This document shows, piece after piece, positions 6,809 through 36,729 of a stretch of DNA of 64,000 bases (position 1 is the first letter of the stretch; each line of letters starts with the position of its first letter). A program made the position numbers and the translations under genes. This stretch comes from an uncultured Alphaproteobacteria bacterium. Lineage in GTDB: Bacteria; Pseudomonadota; Alphaproteobacteria; Micropepsales; Micropepsaceae. The stretch lies in contig CADEFU010000002.1 of NCBI GenBank assembly GCA_902826695.1, positions 248,001 through 312,000 of the forward strand, given 5' to 3'. The notes below the pieces were generated by a model. The model searched no databases. It was not told the origin of the DNA and saw nothing but the letters and a program-made list of their open reading frames with translations.

Positions 6809-7498
6809 ATGAGCCGCATTCCTCTCCTCCTTGCCCTGGGTTTGACCGGGATTGCCGCGACCGGCTGCACGTCGCCGCCGTTGAACAACGACGAGCGTCA
6901 GTACTATGACGCGGCGCAGCAGTTTCCCATCACGGTTGAGCCTCAGGTTCAGACCTTGGCCGTGCAGGTCGACAACGACCTGAACAGCTTGGCGCGCGGC
7001 GAAGCGGAGCGGATTTCCGCATTCGCACAGCGCTGGCGCAATCGCGGGCAGGGCCTCGTGAACGTGGCGACGCCGTCTGGCGCGCACGGCGACGGTGTTC
7101 TCGCGCAAGTGAAGAAGGTCTTGGCTGCGAATGGCGTCGACAAGGGCGCGGTGCAGTTCTCGACCTACAACCCGCCGAGCAGCGAGGGCGTTGCGCCGAT
7201 CACGCTGAGCTATGTCGCCTATGCGGCGACGGCAGCGGAGTGCGGCGGGGATTGGTCACGCAACCTATCGTTCGAGCCGCGCAACACCATGCGGCCCGAC
7301 TTCGGTTGCTCAACGCAACACAATTTCGCAGCGATGGTGGCTGATCCGCACGACTTGATCGAGCCAGCCACGAGCGAGCCGGCTGATGCGATGCGCCGTT
7401 CGATCGTGATCGAGAAGTACCAGAGGGGCGAGGCGACACAGTCAACGCGCAACAATCAGTACGAGAGCGGCCGTACGAGCAACGTGAATCCGAATTGA
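6809..7498 (+). CDS. cpaD: Pilus assembly lipoprotein CpaD
   Basis: 229 residues. The N-terminus MSRIPLLLALGLTGIAATGC is a lipoprotein signal with the lipidated Cys in ATGC. The body fits CpaD: an OmpA-like fold region with late Cys residues (ECGGDWSRN, FGCSTQHNFAAMV) and a closing RRSIVIEKYQRGE. Such proteins assist the CpaC secretin at the outer membrane. An ATG at 6800 would add three residues, but AGG abuts it; 6809 has better spacing. 28 bases before cpaE. Confidence 0.92.
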   Translation: MSRIPLLLALGLTGIAATGCTSPPLNNDERQYYDAAQQFPITVEPQVQTLAVQVDNDLNSLARGEAERISAFAQRWRNRGQGLVNVATPSGAHGDGVLAQVKKVLAANGVDKGAVQFSTYNPPSSEGVAPITLSYVAYAATAAECGGDWSRNLSFEPRNTMRPDFGCSTQHNFAAMVADPHDLIEPATSEPADAMRRSIVIEKYQRGEATQSTRNNQYESGRTSNVNPN

Positions 7499-7526
7499 CG
7501 AGATACCAGGTATCGAGAACGGTCAC

Positions 7527-8792
7527 ATGAGCAAGTCCAACACAACAGACCAAAACAACGATCCGCCGTTCGGCGCGGAAGTGCAGGATCGCCCGGTGCC
7601 CCGGATTTCGATCCATGCGTTCTGCGAGTCGCCGGAAACGGGCTCAGTCATTCAACGCGCGGGACAAGACAGGCGTCTTGCCAAAGCACACCTGACCGTT
7701 CACATGGGCGGAATCTTCGGTGCGGCGGAGTATTTCCAAGACTCCTCGACGCCGAACGTGATCATGGTCGAGACTCGGGTCACGGGACCCGCGATCCTGA
7801 AGGAGCTCGAAAAGCTTGCGCATGTTTGCGATCCGGGCACGAAGGTGATCGTGATCGGCGGGTCGAACGACATCACGCTCTATCGCGAGATGATCCGCCA
7901 GGGCGTGAGCGAATACATCGTGGCACCGCTCAATCCGCTGCAGGTGATTGAGGCGATCGCCGCGCTCTATCACAGCCCGGCAACGGCGCCGATCGGCAAA
8001 GTCTTTGCGTTCGTTGGCTCGCGCGGCGGCGCCGGCTCATCAACGATCGCACACAACACGGCTTGGGCGATTGCGGAAGACCTGCAAATTGCGACGACGA
8101 TCGTCGATCTCGACGTGTCGTTCGGCACCGCTGGGCTCGACTTCAACCAGGATACTACTCAAGGCATCGCCGAGGCGCTGGCAAGCCCGGAGCGGCTCGA
8201 CGACGTGTTGTTGGACCGCCTTTTGATCAAGCACACGAGCCGGCTCAACTTGTTCGTGGCGCCAGCGCAACTCGACCGTGAATCCATGTTCTCACCGGAA
8301 GCGGTCGAGATGGTGCTCGATGTGGTGCGCCAGGCTTCACCGTGCGTGGTGGTGGATCTTCCGCATGTTTGGGCGCCGTGGGTGAAGCAGATTCTCACGT
8401 CAGCGGACGAGATCGTGGTGACGGCGACGCCGGACCTTGCGAGCTTGAGGAACGGCAAAAACATCTACGACATCATCAATAGTGCGCGGCCGAACGACAA
8501 GCCGCTCAAGGTGGTGCTCAATCAGGTCGGCATTCCGCGCCGGCCGGAGATTCCGGTGAAGGACTTCGCAGAGGCAATGTCGGCGGAACCCAGCATCGTC
8601 ATGCCGTTCGATCCGCAGACGTTCGCGACCGCGAGCAACAACGGCCAAATGGTCGGTGAGCTTAGCCCGCAATCGCGCGCGGCGCAGAGCTTTCGCGAGT
8701 TGGCGATGAAGTTGACCGGGCGCGAGCCCAAGGTCGAAGCGAAGCCTACCAACAAACTCAGCTTTGATTTCCTTCGGCGCAAGAAAGCGTAG
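7527..8792 (+). CDS. cpaE: Pilus localisation ATPase-like protein CpaE/TadZ
   Basis: 421 residues. The first part (about 45-150) looks like an atypical receiver domain; from residue 158 there is a ParA/MinD-type domain. Its P-loop reads GSRGGAGSST (164-173): both lysines of a MinD-like KGGxGK[ST] motif are absent (Arg and Ser instead), as reported for other TadZ/CpaE proteins. TadZ marks the polar site of pilus assembly. Ends in a Lys/Arg-rich tail, 7 bases before cpaF. Confidence 0.93.
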   Translation: MSKSNTTDQNNDPPFGAEVQDRPVPRISIHAFCESPETGSVIQRAGQDRRLAKAHLTVHMGGIFGAAEYFQDSSTPNVIMVETRVTGPAILKELEKLAHVCDPGTKVIVIGGSNDITLYREMIRQGVSEYIVAPLNPLQVIEAIAALYHSPATAPIGKVFAFVGSRGGAGSSTIAHNTAWAIAEDLQIATTIVDLDVSFGTAGLDFNQDTTQGIAEALASPERLDDVLLDRLLIKHTSRLNLFVAPAQLDRESMFSPEAVEMVLDVVRQASPCVVVDLPHVWAPWVKQILTSADEIVVTATPDLASLRNGKNIYDIINSARPNDKPLKVVLNQVGIPRRPEIPVKDFAEAMSAEPSIVMPFDPQTFATASNNGQMVGELSPQSRAAQSFRELAMKLTGREPKVEAKPTNKLSFDFLRRKKA

Positions 8793-31918: not shown

Positions 31919-33096
31919 GGCGTCGTCTCGGCGAAGTATGCGTTGAGGATCGCTTCGTAGATTTTCGTCAGGCGTTCCAGGTCGGTGAGCCGAACGCACT
32001 CATCCGTCTTGTGCATCGTCGTGCCGGCAAGGCCGATCTCGGCGACCGGGCAGTGGTGGTGGATGAAGCGGGCGTCTGAGGTGCCGCCCGTGGTCGAGAA
32101 GTTCGGCTTGTCGCCCGTCGCACCGGCGATCGCTTGTTCGAGCAGGGACGTGAACGTGCCGCGCTCGGTCAAGAATGGGTGGGCGCCACGGGTGAACTTT
32201 AGCTCGTGCGTCAGGCCCAAGGGTTTCAGTGCGGCGTCGCATTCGCCTTCGATCCAGCGTTCGAGCGCTTCGGCGGATTGTTGGGTGTTGAAGCGGGTGT
32301 TGAACGTCGCGCGGGCGCTCGCCGGGATCACGTTGGTCGCCGGGTTGCCGACGTCCACGGTCGTGACTTCAAGGTTTGAGGGTTGGAAGTCTTTCGTGCC
32401 GGTGTCGAGTTTGCGAGCGGTGATGCGCGCGAGGGCGGCGACAAGGCCTGGGATCGGGTTGCGGGCGCGGTCGGGATAACCGACATGGCCTTGCACGCCG
32501 TTGACCGTGAGGTAGCCTGTCAGGCTGCCGCGACGGCCAATTTTCACGGTGTCGCCGGCCTGGAACTCCGCTGTCGGTTCGCCGACGATGCAGTGGTCGA
32601 TGCGCTCGCCGTTTTGCTTCATCCATTCGAGGACGCGTACGGTGCCGTCAACGGCGGGGCCTTCTTCGTCACCCGTGATCAGGAGGCTGATCGAGCCGCG
32701 GTTGCGGTGGCGCTCCCCCAAGCGGGCGACCGCGGCGACGAAGGCTGCAATCGCGCTCTTCATGTCGGCGGCGCCGCGGCCGAACAGCGTGCCGTCGGCG
32801 ACTGCGGCCTCGAACGGGTCGAAGCGCCAGGTGGACGCGTCGCCGGGCGGGACGACGTCGGTGTGGCCGGCAAAGCAGAAGTTCGGAGCGGCGGTTCCGA
32901 GGCGTGCGTAAAGGTTCTCGATCCTCGGGCCGCCGGTCGCGAAGGCCAGCCTGGTACAGGTGAAGCCCAAAGCCGTGAGCGCGGCTTCGAGCGCGGCCAG
33001 CGCGCCGCCATCGGCGGGGGTCACGCTACGGCAACGGATCAGGTCACGCGCAAGCGGTAACGGATCGGACAGGCTCGCGCGCACTTGTGTTTCCAT
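31915..33096 (-). CDS. dapE: Succinyl-diaminopimelate desuccinylase
   Basis: 393 residues, M20 peptidase fold. Metal-binding motifs [12 protein letters not shown] and [13 protein letters not shown], the dimerisation-domain [11 protein letters not shown] and the closing [11 protein letters not shown] are as in DapE. It releases succinate from N-succinyl-LL-DAP in lysine and peptidoglycan synthesis. dapD, the earlier step, is 7 kb away at 39836. The start overlaps nothing; the divergent SDR gene begins 70 bases away. Confidence 0.96.
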
Positions 33097-33165
33097 GGGG
33101 GCGATTTAGAACCGGTGGGTGGTCACGTCAAACTCAACCACATACGGGTTAACAGCGAGGAAGCT

Positions 33166-34041
33166 ATGGCGGGACGTCTTCACGGAAAAGTGGCCATTGT
33201 AACAGGCGGCGCGTCGGGGATCGGGCGGGGGACAGTCGATCTTTTCGTGCGCGAAGGGGCCAAAGTGGTCGCCGCCGACATTCAGGACGACAAAGGGGCG
33301 CGCCTCGTCGAGGAGCTGGGCGGAGCCGTCCGCTACGTGCGCTGCGACGTGACGCGCGAGGGTGACGTGAAGGGGGCGGTTGATCTTGCGGTAAAGGCGT
33401 TCGGACGGCTCGACTGTATTTTCAACAACGCGGGAACGCCGGGCGCGATCGAGAACGCGGAGACCGTGACGGGTGAGAGCTTCGATGCGGTCATGCGCCT
33501 GCATGTGCTGGGGGCCATGTTCGGCATGAAGCATGCTGCGCCTGTAATGCGCGAGCAGGGCGGCGGGTCGATCATTTCGACGGCGTCGATTGCCGGTCTG
33601 CGGAATGGCTATGGGCCGCTTCTCTATTCGGTTGCGAAGGCTGCGATCGTGCATATGACGAAGGTGTCGGCGGCGCAGCTTGGGCCGATGAACATCCGCG
33701 TGAACTGCATTTGTCCCGGTCTGATCGCGACGCCGATCTTTGCAAAGGGGGTTGGGCTCGCAACCCAAGTTGCCGATCAGACCGTGACGGCGATCCAAGG
33801 CGTGATGAAAAATTCTCAACCGATCCCGCGTGCGGGGTTGCCGGCGGACATTGCCGAGGCGGCACTGTTTCTTGCTTCCGACGGATCCGGGTTCGTGAAC
33901 GGTCATGCGCTTGTCGTCGATGGCGGAATCACCGTTGGACCGACGGGCGCGGCGCAGGAGGCGGTCTATGCGCCCTTCATACAGGCGATGGGGATCGATC
34001 CGGCAACGCTTGAGCAAATGAACGCTCCGGCGAAAGGGTAG
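33166..34041 (+). CDS. Short-chain dehydrogenase/reductase
   Basis: 291 residues with a GAGGAAG site before the ATG at 33166. NAD-binding TGGASGIGRG near the start, NNAG, the active-site Ser (STASIAG) and YSVAKAA with the catalytic Tyr and Lys, and a C-terminal FVNGHALVVDGG are all present. A classical SDR of about 250 residues is extended here by a C-terminal tail of about 30 residues. Substrate unknown. It is followed 4 bases later by a small monooxygenase-like gene. Confidence 0.9.
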   Translation: MAGRLHGKVAIVTGGASGIGRGTVDLFVREGAKVVAADIQDDKGARLVEELGGAVRYVRCDVTREGDVKGAVDLAVKAFGRLDCIFNNAGTPGAIENAETVTGESFDAVMRLHVLGAMFGMKHAAPVMREQGGGSIISTASIAGLRNGYGPLLYSVAKAAIVHMTKVSAAQLGPMNIRVNCICPGLIATPIFAKGVGLATQVADQTVTAIQGVMKNSQPIPRAGLPADIAEAALFLASDGSGFVNGHALVVDGGITVGPTGAAQEAVYAPFIQAMGIDPATLEQMNAPAKG

Positions 34042-34045
34042 AACC

Positions 34046-34345
34046 ATGATCATCGTGGCGGGCAGCGTGCGTGTCGATCCGGCGAAGCGCGAAGCGGCGC
34101 GGGCGATCATGGAGAAAGTGATTACGGCGTCGCGTGGCGAAGACGGGTGCATCGACTATGCGTATGCGGTCGACGTGCTCGATCCGGGCCTCGTGCGCGT
34201 GTGGGAGGTGTGGCGCGACCGCGAGACGTTGCAGCGGCACTTTCAGACGCCGCACTTGGGCGAGTGGCGGGCGGCCTGGCCGACATTCGGGATCAGCGAC
34301 CGGAAGCTCGCGATTTACGATGTCAGCGGCACGACGGCGCTCTGA
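34046..34345 (+). CDS. Antibiotic biosynthesis monooxygenase (ABM/YgiN-like) domain protein
   Basis: 99 residues of a single ABM-fold domain: VAGSVRVDPAKREAARAIME, DGCIDYAYAVDVLDPG and the closing VWEVWRDRETLQRHFQTPH. Such small dimeric proteins act on quinones or polyketides or bind small molecules; the function here is not determinable. It is in one operon with the SDR upstream (4-base gap). It converges on the CinA-like gene. Confidence 0.88.
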   Translation: MIIVAGSVRVDPAKREAARAIMEKVITASRGEDGCIDYAYAVDVLDPGLVRVWEVWRDRETLQRHFQTPHLGEWRAAWPTFGISDRKLAIYDVSGTTAL

Positions 34346-34349
34346 CGGC

Positions 34350-34847
34350 TCAGCTTGCTCGCGGGGCTGCATTCAGTGCTTCGACAATAAGTTCCAACGC
34401 CGCTTCGGCGAACCAGTTCATGTTTGTCCAACGGTCGCTTGTGCCAGTGCGTAGCGTTCGTACGATCGAAACGGGACCCGAGACTGCAATGCAGGTGTGG
34501 CCCGCCGGGTCGCCGTAGCCGTTGCCGTCGGGGCCAGCTGCGCCGGTTTCGGCGAGGCCCCATTCGACGCGGTGTTTGGTTTTGATCGTTTCAGCGAGGA
34601 ACGCGGCGTAGGGTTCGCTTGACGAGCGCATGCCGCCCAAGCTTTCGCGATCGAGATTGAGCAGGCCTTTGAAGGCGCGCGGCGAATATATGACGCCGCC
34701 GCCTGCGTAGTAGGCAGAGGCGCCGGGGACTGCGAGCAGGGCAGCCGAGATGAGTCCGCCGGCTGAGGACTCTGCGACCGCGATGCGCTCTTTGCGGGCA
34801 ATGAGGAGGATGGCGGCCGTGGCGGCGGTCGGGCGTGGGTCGTGCAT
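34350..34847 (-). CDS. CinA C-terminal domain protein (NMN amidohydrolase-like)
   Basis: 165 residues from MHDPRPTAATAA. The core IAVAESSAGGLISAALLAVPGASAYYAGG matches the CinA C-domain, except that the usual SCTGG reads SSAGG, so the Cys and Thr of that motif are replaced. Later, ETGAAGPDGNGYGDPAGHTCIAV keeps the family's GPxG pattern. Related enzymes deamidate nicotinamide mononucleotide. It is the last gene of the SDR-sterol reductase operon, 8 bases after the previous stop. Confidence 0.8.
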   Translation of the reverse strand: MHDPRPTAATAAILLIARKERIAVAESSAGGLISAALLAVPGASAYYAGGGVIYSPRAFKGLLNLDRESLGGMRSSSEPYAAFLAETIKTKHRVEWGLAETGAAGPDGNGYGDPAGHTCIAVSGPVSIVRTLRTGTSDRWTNMNWFAEAALELIVEALNAAPRAS

Positions 34848-34855
34848 GTAGGGTC

Positions 34856-35932
34856 CTAGTAGATGCCAGGGATGATGCGGTAGGGCACGCGTTTGACGTA
34901 GCTGTCCCAAAGCGCGCCGTATTTCTCGGCGCAGCGGCGGTCGTCGTCGATCTGGCGGGGGACGAGCAAGGCGACGTAGTAGAGCGGGTAGAGCCACGGT
35001 CCGATGTGGGTTGGGTAGCCGAGCGCGAGTGCGAGGCCGATGGCCATCAGGAACTCACCCAGATAGTTCACGTGGCGTGAAACGCCCCAGAACCCGTTGA
35101 CAAGGAGTTTGTGCTTGCCGTCGGTCAGGACTTCGGGGGCGATCCCGAGGAACTTTGCGGTCGGGTCGCGCTTGAATGTGTATTTTTGCATGTTCGCGCC
35201 GCGTGCGAGTGACCAGCCTGCGAAGAAAATCGCTGCCGCAGCGACGAGCATTGCCGTTGGCGTGTGCGGGTTGGGCAGCTCTGCGGTCGACCAGAGGCCG
35301 ATCGTGTAGAAGTACGGGTAGAAGAGCAGGCATCCCCAGCCGAGCTTGAAGCCCATGCGCTCGGCGAAGAAGTCGTAAGTATAAAGATGCACGCGCTCGA
35401 AGAAGAGGTACTCGCTCAAGAAGAATGTGAATAGCGCCGCGTAGAGCGCAACGCCGGGCGAAGGGTCGCCGGGGTGAGTCAGATAGTGATGCGCGGCGAA
35501 CGAGTAGATGTTGAGGCCCAGCATCGTCGCGCCGACCATATAGAGCCACATCTTTGCGTCGATGCGCCCGCCCAGCCATTGTGGGTTTGGGGCGCGGCCG
35601 AGGAAGAGGTCGGCTAGCAGGCCTTTGCCCGTGCTTGGTTCGGGCAGGACGACGGCTGCCGTGAACAGCAGACCGAATACACAGGCGCCTGCCAACCCTT
35701 CCCAACGCGTGGTCCAGAAGAAATCCCACGCGAGCCATCCCGATTGGCAGGCGAGCGCCCAAAGGGCGATCGTTAGTACAAAAACGATGAGGCCGTTGAG
35801 GCGATAGCGGAGGGGCTTTCCGGTCGTGGGGTCCGTTACGTAGCCGTCCACGGTGCGCGCGGGGACGATGAGGTGCAGCGCCGTTACGAGTGCGTACACG
35901 GCCAAGGGTGCCAAGAATCCTGCGATGGTCAC
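34856..35932 (-). CDS. Sterol reductase-like membrane protein (ERG4/ERG24/DHCR7 family)
   Basis: 358 residues with about nine or ten membrane helices. The C-terminal half carries the family's NADPH-binding signature: ANMQKYTFKRDP, then LLVNGFWGVSRHVNYLGE and the terminal run DDRRCAEKYGALWDSYVKRVPYR...PGIY, which match delta-14/delta-7 sterol reductases. Such enzymes reduce ring double bonds of sterols in the ER membrane of eukaryotes; bacterial members are few. The true substrate is unknown and could be another isoprenoid. It overlaps the SDR gene upstream by four bases. Confidence 0.85.
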   Translation of the reverse strand: MTIAGFLAPLAVYALVTALHLIVPARTVDGYVTDPTTGKPLRYRLNGLIVFVLTIALWALACQSGWLAWDFFWTTRWEGLAGACVFGLLFTAAVVLPEPSTGKGLLADLFLGRAPNPQWLGGRIDAKMWLYMVGATMLGLNIYSFAAHHYLTHPGDPSPGVALYAALFTFFLSEYLFFERVHLYTYDFFAERMGFKLGWGCLLFYPYFYTIGLWSTAELPNPHTPTAMLVAAAAIFFAGWSLARGANMQKYTFKRDPTAKFLGIAPEVLTDGKHKLLVNGFWGVSRHVNYLGEFLMAIGLALALGYPTHIGPWLYPLYYVALLVPRQIDDDRRCAEKYGALWDSYVKRVPYRIIPGIY

Positions 35933-36729
35933 GAGAGATCCTTCGTTGAGCGGGCGAAGATTTCGATGGCGGTGCGGCGCGGCAGCATTCGGCCAAGTAC
36001 GAAGCGCGCAATGCGGTTTGTGGTACCCGGCACGACCACGGGGCCGCGGCCTAGTGCGTCGAGCGTCTGTTCCGCGACGGTGGCGGCATCGAGCGTGCCG
36101 GGGGCATCTTTACCGGCGGCTTTTGCATAGCCTGGTGTGCGGATGGCGCCTGCGCTTGAGACAATAACGTCAACGCCGTGTGGCTCCAGCTCGCGCCAAA
36201 GGCCTTCGCCGAGCACGATGTTGAAGGCTTTGGACGCGGCGTAGGTCGCGATGCGTGGCGCGCCTTGATAGCCCGCCAACGACGACATCAAGACGATGCC
36301 GCCGCGGCCGCGTGCCGTCATCTTCGGCGCGAGCGTGCGGGCGACAATGAGCGGGCCGCGGATGTTGACGTCCACAACGCCGAGCAGATCGTCCATCGGG
36401 CGGCTTGTGAGTTCGCCGACGGGCGCGAACGCGGCGTTGTAGACGGCGAGGCCAATGTCGGTATTCGCGATGAGCGTGGCAAGTGCGTCGGCGAGGTCGG
36501 GGCGCGCGAGGTCGAAGGCTTGCGTGCGGACTTGAACGCTGGTGTTCGCGCGCACAGTTTCGGCCACGGCTTGAAGGTGGTCGGCTCTGCGCGCCAGCAG
36601 GAGTAGGTTTAAGCCACGCGTTGCGAGTGCTGCCGCGAAGGCTGCGCCAAGGCCCTCCGATGCGCCTGCTACGAGTGCCCAAGGGCCGTACTTTCGGGCG
36701 AAGGGCGTTGCCGTGGTGCTTTCGTTCAT
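35929..36729 (-). CDS. Short-chain dehydrogenase (DltE-like), first gene of sterol-reductase operon
   Basis: 266 residues from MNESTTATPFARKYGPWALV. The NAD motif is VAGASEGLGAA, the active site has MSSLAGYQG and YAASKAF, so Ser, Tyr and Lys are present. The C-terminal part (TTNRIARFVLGRMLPRRTAIEIF) is typical of SDRs related to 17-beta-hydroxysteroid dehydrogenase 12-like proteins. It starts the minus-strand operon and overlaps the sterol-reductase gene (ATGA), so the two products probably act on the same lipid substrate (inference). Confidence 0.85.
   Translation of the reverse strand: MNESTTATPFARKYGPWALVAGASEGLGAAFAAALATRGLNLLLLARRADHLQAVAETVRANTSVQVRTQAFDLARPDLADALATLIANTDIGLAVYNAAFAPVGELTSRPMDDLLGVVDVNIRGPLIVARTLAPKMTARGRGGIVLMSSLAGYQGAPRIATYAASKAFNIVLGEGLWRELEPHGVDVIVSSAGAIRTPGYAKAAGKDAPGTLDAATVAEQTLDALGRGPVVVPGTTNRIARFVLGRMLPRRTAIEIFARSTKDLS

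Follow-up and report, generated by a model that had tools for sequence, protein, structure and literature searches.

Bacterial genes of the ERG4/ERG24 family (Pfam PF01222) are easily taken for sterol C-14 or C-7 reductases, and serve as evidence of sterol synthesis. In MaSR1, the delta(14)-sterol reductase of Methylotuvimicrobium alcaliphilum, the NADPH pocket is lined by N359 and R395 (PMC4951196), and Tyr241 has been proposed as a catalytic residue (PMC12489058). ERG24 has been listed for Plesiocystis, Sandaracinus and others, and methanotrophs without one have been noted (Wei et al., 2016, PMC4919349). A DHCR7 homologue of Nannocystis has been assigned by similarity (PMC10152446), and operons with ERG24, CYP51 and LSS have been described from Ircinia sponges (PMC9531527). 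In addition, the sterol reductases of Plesiocystis pacifica and HTCC2080 were placed outside the C-7, C-14 and C-24 clusters (Moliner et al., 2009, PMC2667531). In this work we analyse a stretch of 64,000 nucleotides (the window) from an uncultured alphaproteobacterium of the Micropepsaceae (contig CADEFU010000002.1, positions 248,001 to 312,000), which encodes a membrane protein of this family coupled to a classical short-chain dehydrogenase/reductase (SDR). The analysis separates a bacterial clade in which a kept cofactor site and a changed substrate pocket come together with a constant SDR partner; most of its carriers seem unable to make sterols.

Identification of the reductase and its relatives

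The features at the centre of this analysis, in window coordinates, are as follows.

34856..35932, minus strand: membrane reductase of the ERG4/ERG24 family, SDR-coupled clade, 358 residues, GTG start
35929..36729, minus strand: classical SDR partner, 266 residues, Pfam adh_short 113.5 bits
35420..35422, minus strand: codon of Phe171, at the position of the proposed catalytic Tyr241 in the alignment to MaSR1

The 358-residue protein is a true member of the ERG4/ERG24 family. It carries ANMQKYTFKRDP, GVSRHVNYLG and DDRRC...KYG...YR, and matches PF01222 over residues 11-358 with 162.9 bits against a cut-off of 27 (E 1.4e-47); the same model is matched by all 60 clade members scanned. At E 0.001, no NCBIfam model, no steroid 5-alpha-reductase Pfam model and no entry of a viral structure library matched the reductase. 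The best solved relative is MaSR1 (PDB 4quv, E 1.4e-37), and 9l5r, also a sterol C-14 reductase, is among the best. An AlphaFold model made with 60 sequences (pLDDT 90.2, pTM 0.90) aligns with 4quv over 343 residues, with Z 33.6 and a root-mean-square deviation of 3.2. The membrane protein with a sterol-reductase-type signature, which the original prediction had recognized from the motifs, is thus confirmed by family model and fold.

The next folds after 4quv were steroid 5-alpha-reductase (SRD5A, Z 11.3 and 10.7), which was therefore rejected as the best solved fold, and isoprenylcysteine methyltransferase (ICMT, Z 10.1). An origin among the ICMT-like DUF1295 proteins, which the original prediction had raised against itself, was rejected as well. 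The DUF1295 model covers residues 226-302 only, with 28.7 bits (cut-off 20.4), far below the PF01222 score, and the ICMT fold lies far behind that of MaSR1; the comparison rests on profile and fold, since the tree described below has no ICMT or DUF1295 rows.

A scan of an 84,980-species genome collection yielded 262 pattern matches, 193 of which encode a relative, and the best 80 were kept (loci and genomes are labelled L and G below). These best 80 of the 193 are 51-91% identical to the window protein, so that the observation lies far beyond chance. Their hosts are alphaproteobacteria, myxobacteria, gammaproteobacteria, actinobacteria and Bacteroidota, as well as Treponema, other Spirochaetota, a Verrucomicrobium and Bacillota, and include metagenome-assembled genomes of anaerobic lineages.

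A separate clade with a changed substrate pocket

In a first tree of 95 rows, 10 canonical sterol-type rows split from the 85 others (SH-aLRT 100), and the same kind of split was found in a second tree of 69 rows (100/100). The final tree comprised 52 rows chosen for spread, with no fungal ERG4, named DHCR7, ICMT or DUF1295 rows, and was rooted on three rows that we take to be DHCR7-like from their motifs. On one side of a branch with support of 100/100 and a stem of 1.71 are 30 rows, which belong to the window clade and to a further group termed the C clade. Together, the two are sister to the bacterial sterol-operon-type reductases (100/99), inside the sterol-reductase family, and the three presumed DHCR7-like rows, none of them a named DHCR7, branch apart (100/100). 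L091 is placed nearer to the C clade with weak support (86/96, second tree), so the window clade is not shown as a single clade if this locus is counted in.

For the residue comparison, 78 distinct window-clade proteins (those of 77 of the 80 loci, and the window's own) were set against 32 other family members. L037, L068 and L070 have no frame of 300 residues and were left out, and the PDB chains were represented by their aligned parts only. The positions of W352, R395 and D399 in MaSR1 are invariant in both sets. Those of N359 and K319 are invariant in 78/78 clade members and are N or H, and K or R, respectively, among the 32 others. NADPH-site residues, whose lack would have refuted the original prediction, are therefore kept throughout the clade (N359 and R395). 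Moreover, 61 columns are invariant over 60 clade sequences from many phyla, the NADPH-site residues among them.

The substrate side is different. The position of the proposed catalytic Tyr241 is Phe in 78/78 clade members (Phe171 in the window) and Tyr in 32/32 others; in the C clade, Tyr is found in 4 of 5. Further changes found across the window clade are, in MaSR1 numbering, His 252, Tyr 256, Lys 266, Tyr 275, Trp 309 and Tyr 320. The position of Asp363 is Glu in the window clade, but Glu is also present in 23 of the 32 others. Based on this comparison across clade and family, the cofactor half appears to be kept and the substrate side remade. Clade and residues together thus indicate a separate bacterial clade, distinct from the known C-14 reductases, and the identification as a delta-14/delta-7 sterol reductase, which the original prediction had drawn from the motifs, is not supported.

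The C clade is a third group of PF01222 proteins (L159 on contig C6 of G507, L160, L207 and L208), about 39-44% identical to the window protein. One Acidimicrobiales genome has two such genes in tandem, and in three genomes of sterol type the C-clade gene accompanies a canonical copy. PF01222 copies scoring 350-447 bits were found in several myxobacterial genomes, two per genome in some. Of these, L221 and L224 branch separately and have Gln, Arg and His at MaSR1 positions 316, 319 and 359.

The associated SDR gene

The stop codon TGA of the upstream SDR gene and the start codon GTG of the reductase gene share the letters GTGA, giving a 4-bp overlap. The coupling to an SDR stated in the original prediction extends well beyond the window, since an SDR homologue is linked to the reductase in 70 of the 80 loci. 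In 51 of them it lies immediately upstream in the same orientation, and in 19 it is downstream and convergent. It was not seen in the remaining 10, three of which (L031, L070 and L093) are located at contig ends. All but one of the 19 convergent cases fall in one reductase clade of 23 rows, mostly Bacteroidota, where the upstream form occurs in 0/23. The confinement to this clade suggests that the gene order changed while an SDR partner stayed. The convergent SDRs are 32-42% identical to the window SDR (57% in L074), and may also reflect replacement by a related SDR.

The distances among SDRs and among reductases are correlated, with a Mantel r of 0.83 for 44 upstream pairs and 0.85 for 17 convergent pairs (0/999 permutations as high), a correlation to which shared host-lineage ancestry also contributes. 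At the sequence level, the SDR thus appears to co-evolve with the reductase across phyla. The window SDR has a G22/G26/G28 cofactor loop, R47, S150, Y163 and K167, and Ser150, Tyr163 and Lys167 are present in 47/47 aligned upstream-type SDRs, the window's included. Its best NCBIfam match is mycolate reductase, with 133.8 bits of a cut-off of 380, followed by 7beta-hydroxysteroid dehydrogenase.

The third gene on this strand was included in the operon by the original prediction.

34350..34847, minus strand: CinA/PncC-domain protein, 165 residues, PF02464 128.1 bits, PncC_domain over cut-off

Its start is separated from the reductase stop by 8 bp. However, a CinA homologue is near the pair in only 1 of 80 loci, and CinA was rejected as a member of the unit. 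In that locus (L016), which is the closest relative, a NUDIX gene (7097-7531) lies between the reductase and CinA genes where the window has the 8 bp. On the plus strand, positions 33085-34345 encode another classical SDR, unlike the partner described above, followed by an ABM-domain protein (PF03992, 34046-34345), both heading towards the CinA gene. When all neighbours in the 80 loci were clustered, and same-strand close neighbours considered, no operon partner beyond the SDR recurred across lineages, and no sterol genes recurred near the pair. The other neighbour clusters reflect local synteny, with four related Bacteroidota having a common run of neighbours. Three other loci share an upstream radical-SAM-like gene and a downstream peroxiredoxin-like gene, both named by eye.

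Distribution and sterol-synthesis genes

The window's own genome (4.3 Mb, 99.7% complete) contains one PF01222 gene. The original prediction had found neither squalene epoxidase nor oxidosqualene cyclase (OSC) in the window, and the whole genome agrees with this. Searched at E 0.001 for these and for squalene-hopene cyclase, it gave 0 matches to the squalene/oxidosqualene cyclase model PF13243 and 0 to the squalene epoxidase model PF08491, the latter being of low specificity, as it was also matched in the E. coli and Caulobacter controls. Full-length copies of the reductase were found in 6 of 96 genomes of the same family, and in a draw of 398 genomes from the phylum the window's own was the sole carrier (1/398). 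The gene is accessory and very patchy.

Among the 80 relatives, PF13243 is over cut-off in 13 genomes (10 of 50 and 3 of 30), some with hopene-cyclase-like or partial matches, and 67 are without one. Several carrier lineages are known anaerobes, where sterol synthesis that depends on oxygen would not be expected. A second, canonical reductase of more than 200 bits is present in 8 of the 80 (8 of 50, 0 of 30), and 7 of these 8 also have a cyclase match. Carriers that have a cyclase of a sterol operon thus as a rule also have a canonical second copy. For example, in five gammaproteobacteria (G520-G524) the canonical copy lies about 4 kb from an OSC match of the same contig, and in G521 it is situated between a cytochrome P450 and a Rieske oxygenase. 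The window-clade copy of these genomes lies elsewhere, and no window-clade gene was seen inside a sterol operon. Therefore, where a sterol operon is clear, it is occupied by a different family member.

Draws were also made from single phyla or classes. Of 395 Bacteroidota genomes, 6 have canonical copies and 3 have lower-scoring copies, one of these 3 being the window-clade genome at the centre of the draw. The copies of the other two (G788 and G812) belong to the C clade by residues, and both genomes also have a canonical copy as well as a cyclase match; they are consequently not counted for enrichment of the window clade in sterol genomes. The sole intact copy of window-clade score in 369 Gammaproteobacteria genomes is that of the centre genome, and G993 has broken fragments. 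In 282 Myxococcota genomes, 10 have copies of window-clade score, 39 canonical copies and 4 both, the classes being set by score, with residues checked in G500 and G504 only. A canonical copy occurs in 4 of these 10 genomes and in 35 of the 272 others (Fisher p 0.036; 0.11 if the centre genome is excluded).

When the sterol-operon alignment was run against viral contigs, 78 pattern matches were obtained and 0 confirmed. In an IMG/VR contig (L204:3-3541), a window-clade reductase gene, of which the 3' part is present, adjoins a phage tail gene (PF10145), a junction that may be a prophage edge, phage cargo or an assembly join. Plasmid p2 of Planktothrix agardhii (L206, NZ_LR882940.1, 35294-48028) carries a canonical sterol-type PF01222 gene of 244.8 bits together with an SDR, an FAD oxidoreductase, a P450, three Rieske proteins, a carbamoyltransferase and an emopamil-binding protein, and looks like a plasmid-borne sterol-type gene cluster.

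Possible function of the gene pair

Our preferred reading, to which we assign a probability of about 0.5, is that the SDR and the reductase form a two-enzyme NADPH-dependent module that reduces C=C and C=O bonds in a sterol, or a lipid resembling one, that the cell has acquired. The reductase clade would have diverged within reach of the sterol-operon C-14 reductases, leaving the sterol-reductase family, after which its substrate pocket changed. Embedded in the membrane, the reductase would draw on cytosolic NADPH to saturate a C=C bond of a hydrophobic substrate that reaches it through the membrane, and the SDR would interconvert a neighbouring alcohol and ketone of the same substrate. More speculatively, the absence of the proposed acid Tyr would be in keeping with a substrate that the SDR has activated as an enone, which would give the SDR a reason to be present. 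As substrate we consider a sterol, or a similar lipid of polycyclic or isoprenoid type, acquired from outside, the most likely, because the neighbouring clade is found in sterol operons, carriers are scattered over many phyla, and the majority of them seem unable to make sterols or hopanoids. Of the substrates named in the original prediction, acquired sterols or other isoprenoids remain plausible, but the bacterium's own hopanoids are unlikely, since its genome lacks a match to squalene-hopene cyclase.

Several points weigh against this reading. The catalytic role of Tyr241 is itself a proposal from modelling (PMC12489058). Cys at MaSR1 position 271, found in 74 of 78 clade members, is shared by 3/3 of the DHCR7-like rows, so this change alone is no argument against sterols. 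In Myxococcota, the clade may be slightly enriched in genomes that have a canonical reductase, which would fit a part in endogenous sterol metabolism as well. Finally, a preference of the SDR for NADP(H) is presumed here from Arg47.

In the main rival reading, the pair would modify a lipid that the cell makes itself and that is not a sterol, for example a polyprenol, a quinone side chain, a carotenoid or a long-chain ketone. SDRs paired with 5-alpha-reductase-like enzymes are used in eukaryotic polyprenol synthesis and fatty-acid elongation, and carriers without cyclases in many phyla, the lack of recurrent sterol genes near the pair and the below-cut-off similarity of the SDR to a keto-lipid (mycolate) reductase would all suit such a role. 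A core lipid, however, is ill-matched by a gene so patchy in its own family and phylum, the fold is MaSR1-like rather than SRD5A-like, and the nearest clade consists of sterol-operon reductases; we regard this rival as unlikely, though as the strongest of the alternatives. Still less probable, in our judgement, is an ordinary sterol C-14 or C-7 reductase working on intermediates taken from eukaryotes, as proposed for enzymes of amoeba-associated Legionella, Protochlamydia and Coxiella (PMC2667531). Family and fold are the same, C-7-type homologues do occur in those bacteria (PMC2667531), and Cys at position 271 is shared with the DHCR7-like rows; but the clade stands apart from both the C-14 and the DHCR7-like rows, Phe replaces the proposed catalytic Tyr in every member, and 7 of the 8 relatives with a canonical copy also have a cyclase match, so that the C-14 job seems already taken there. 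Loss of that Tyr in all members could also point to a non-catalytic or moonlighting membrane protein that has kept the fold. The 61 invariant columns with the NADPH-site residues, and the tie to an SDR whose Ser-Tyr-Lys set is intact in all aligned upstream-type partners, make this highly improbable.

A bolder form of the acquired-lipid reading, which we consider doubtful, is an oxygen-independent module for hydrogenation of sterols or steroids. The SDR would oxidise an allylic or homoallylic alcohol to the ketone, the membrane enzyme would use NADPH to reduce the enone, after which the SDR may turn the ketone back into an alcohol. If true, bacteria unable to make sterols could saturate sterols from their surroundings, and the two genes could underlie the conversion of stenols to stanols in soils, animal guts and anoxic sediments. 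Action on environmental sterols would bear on the origin of stanols, which are used as biomarkers. The two-gene unit is directly testable for sterol or isoprenoid reduction. In any case, the window clade warns against inferring sterol synthesis from a PF01222 match alone.

Comparison with known reductases

No published account of the window clade or of its SDR pair was found in a search that covered mostly literature outside subscription. P. pacifica carries both a window-clade copy (L023, 63% identity) and a canonical copy (L130). The unplaced Plesiocystis/HTCC2080 group of Moliner et al. may be the window clade, although the Results of that paper do not specify the P. pacifica copy used. The 8,14-sterol reductase of a 2026 paper (PMC13277303) was set aside, being, as described there, an unrelated protein of NTF2 fold.

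The DHCR7-type delta-7 reductases belong to the same Pfam family, and the three rows presumed to be DHCR7-like have Cys at position 271 in common with the window protein. Unlike it, these rows are about 430-456 residues long and have Arg and His at positions 319 and 359. MaSR1 is 30% identical to the window protein over 343 residues, and N359, R395 and D399 are common to both. However, MaSR1 is in a different clade, its first ~70 residues have no counterpart in the window protein, and its Tyr241, Asp363 and Asp271 correspond to Phe171, Glu293 and Cys201. Closest of all are the bacterial sterol-operon C-14 reductases, the type matched by the Ircinia operons (PMC9531527) and represented here by copies from genomes with an OSC, next to P450 and Rieske genes. 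Like the window clade, to which they are sister, they have about 360 residues, the NADPH-site residues and Glu at position 363. In contrast, they have Tyr rather than Phe at 241, Met, Ala or Thr rather than Lys at 266, mostly Trp rather than Tyr at 256, and His, Asp or Asn rather than Tyr at 320. Where looked at, they are located in sterol gene clusters and not beside the SDR to which the window clade is linked.

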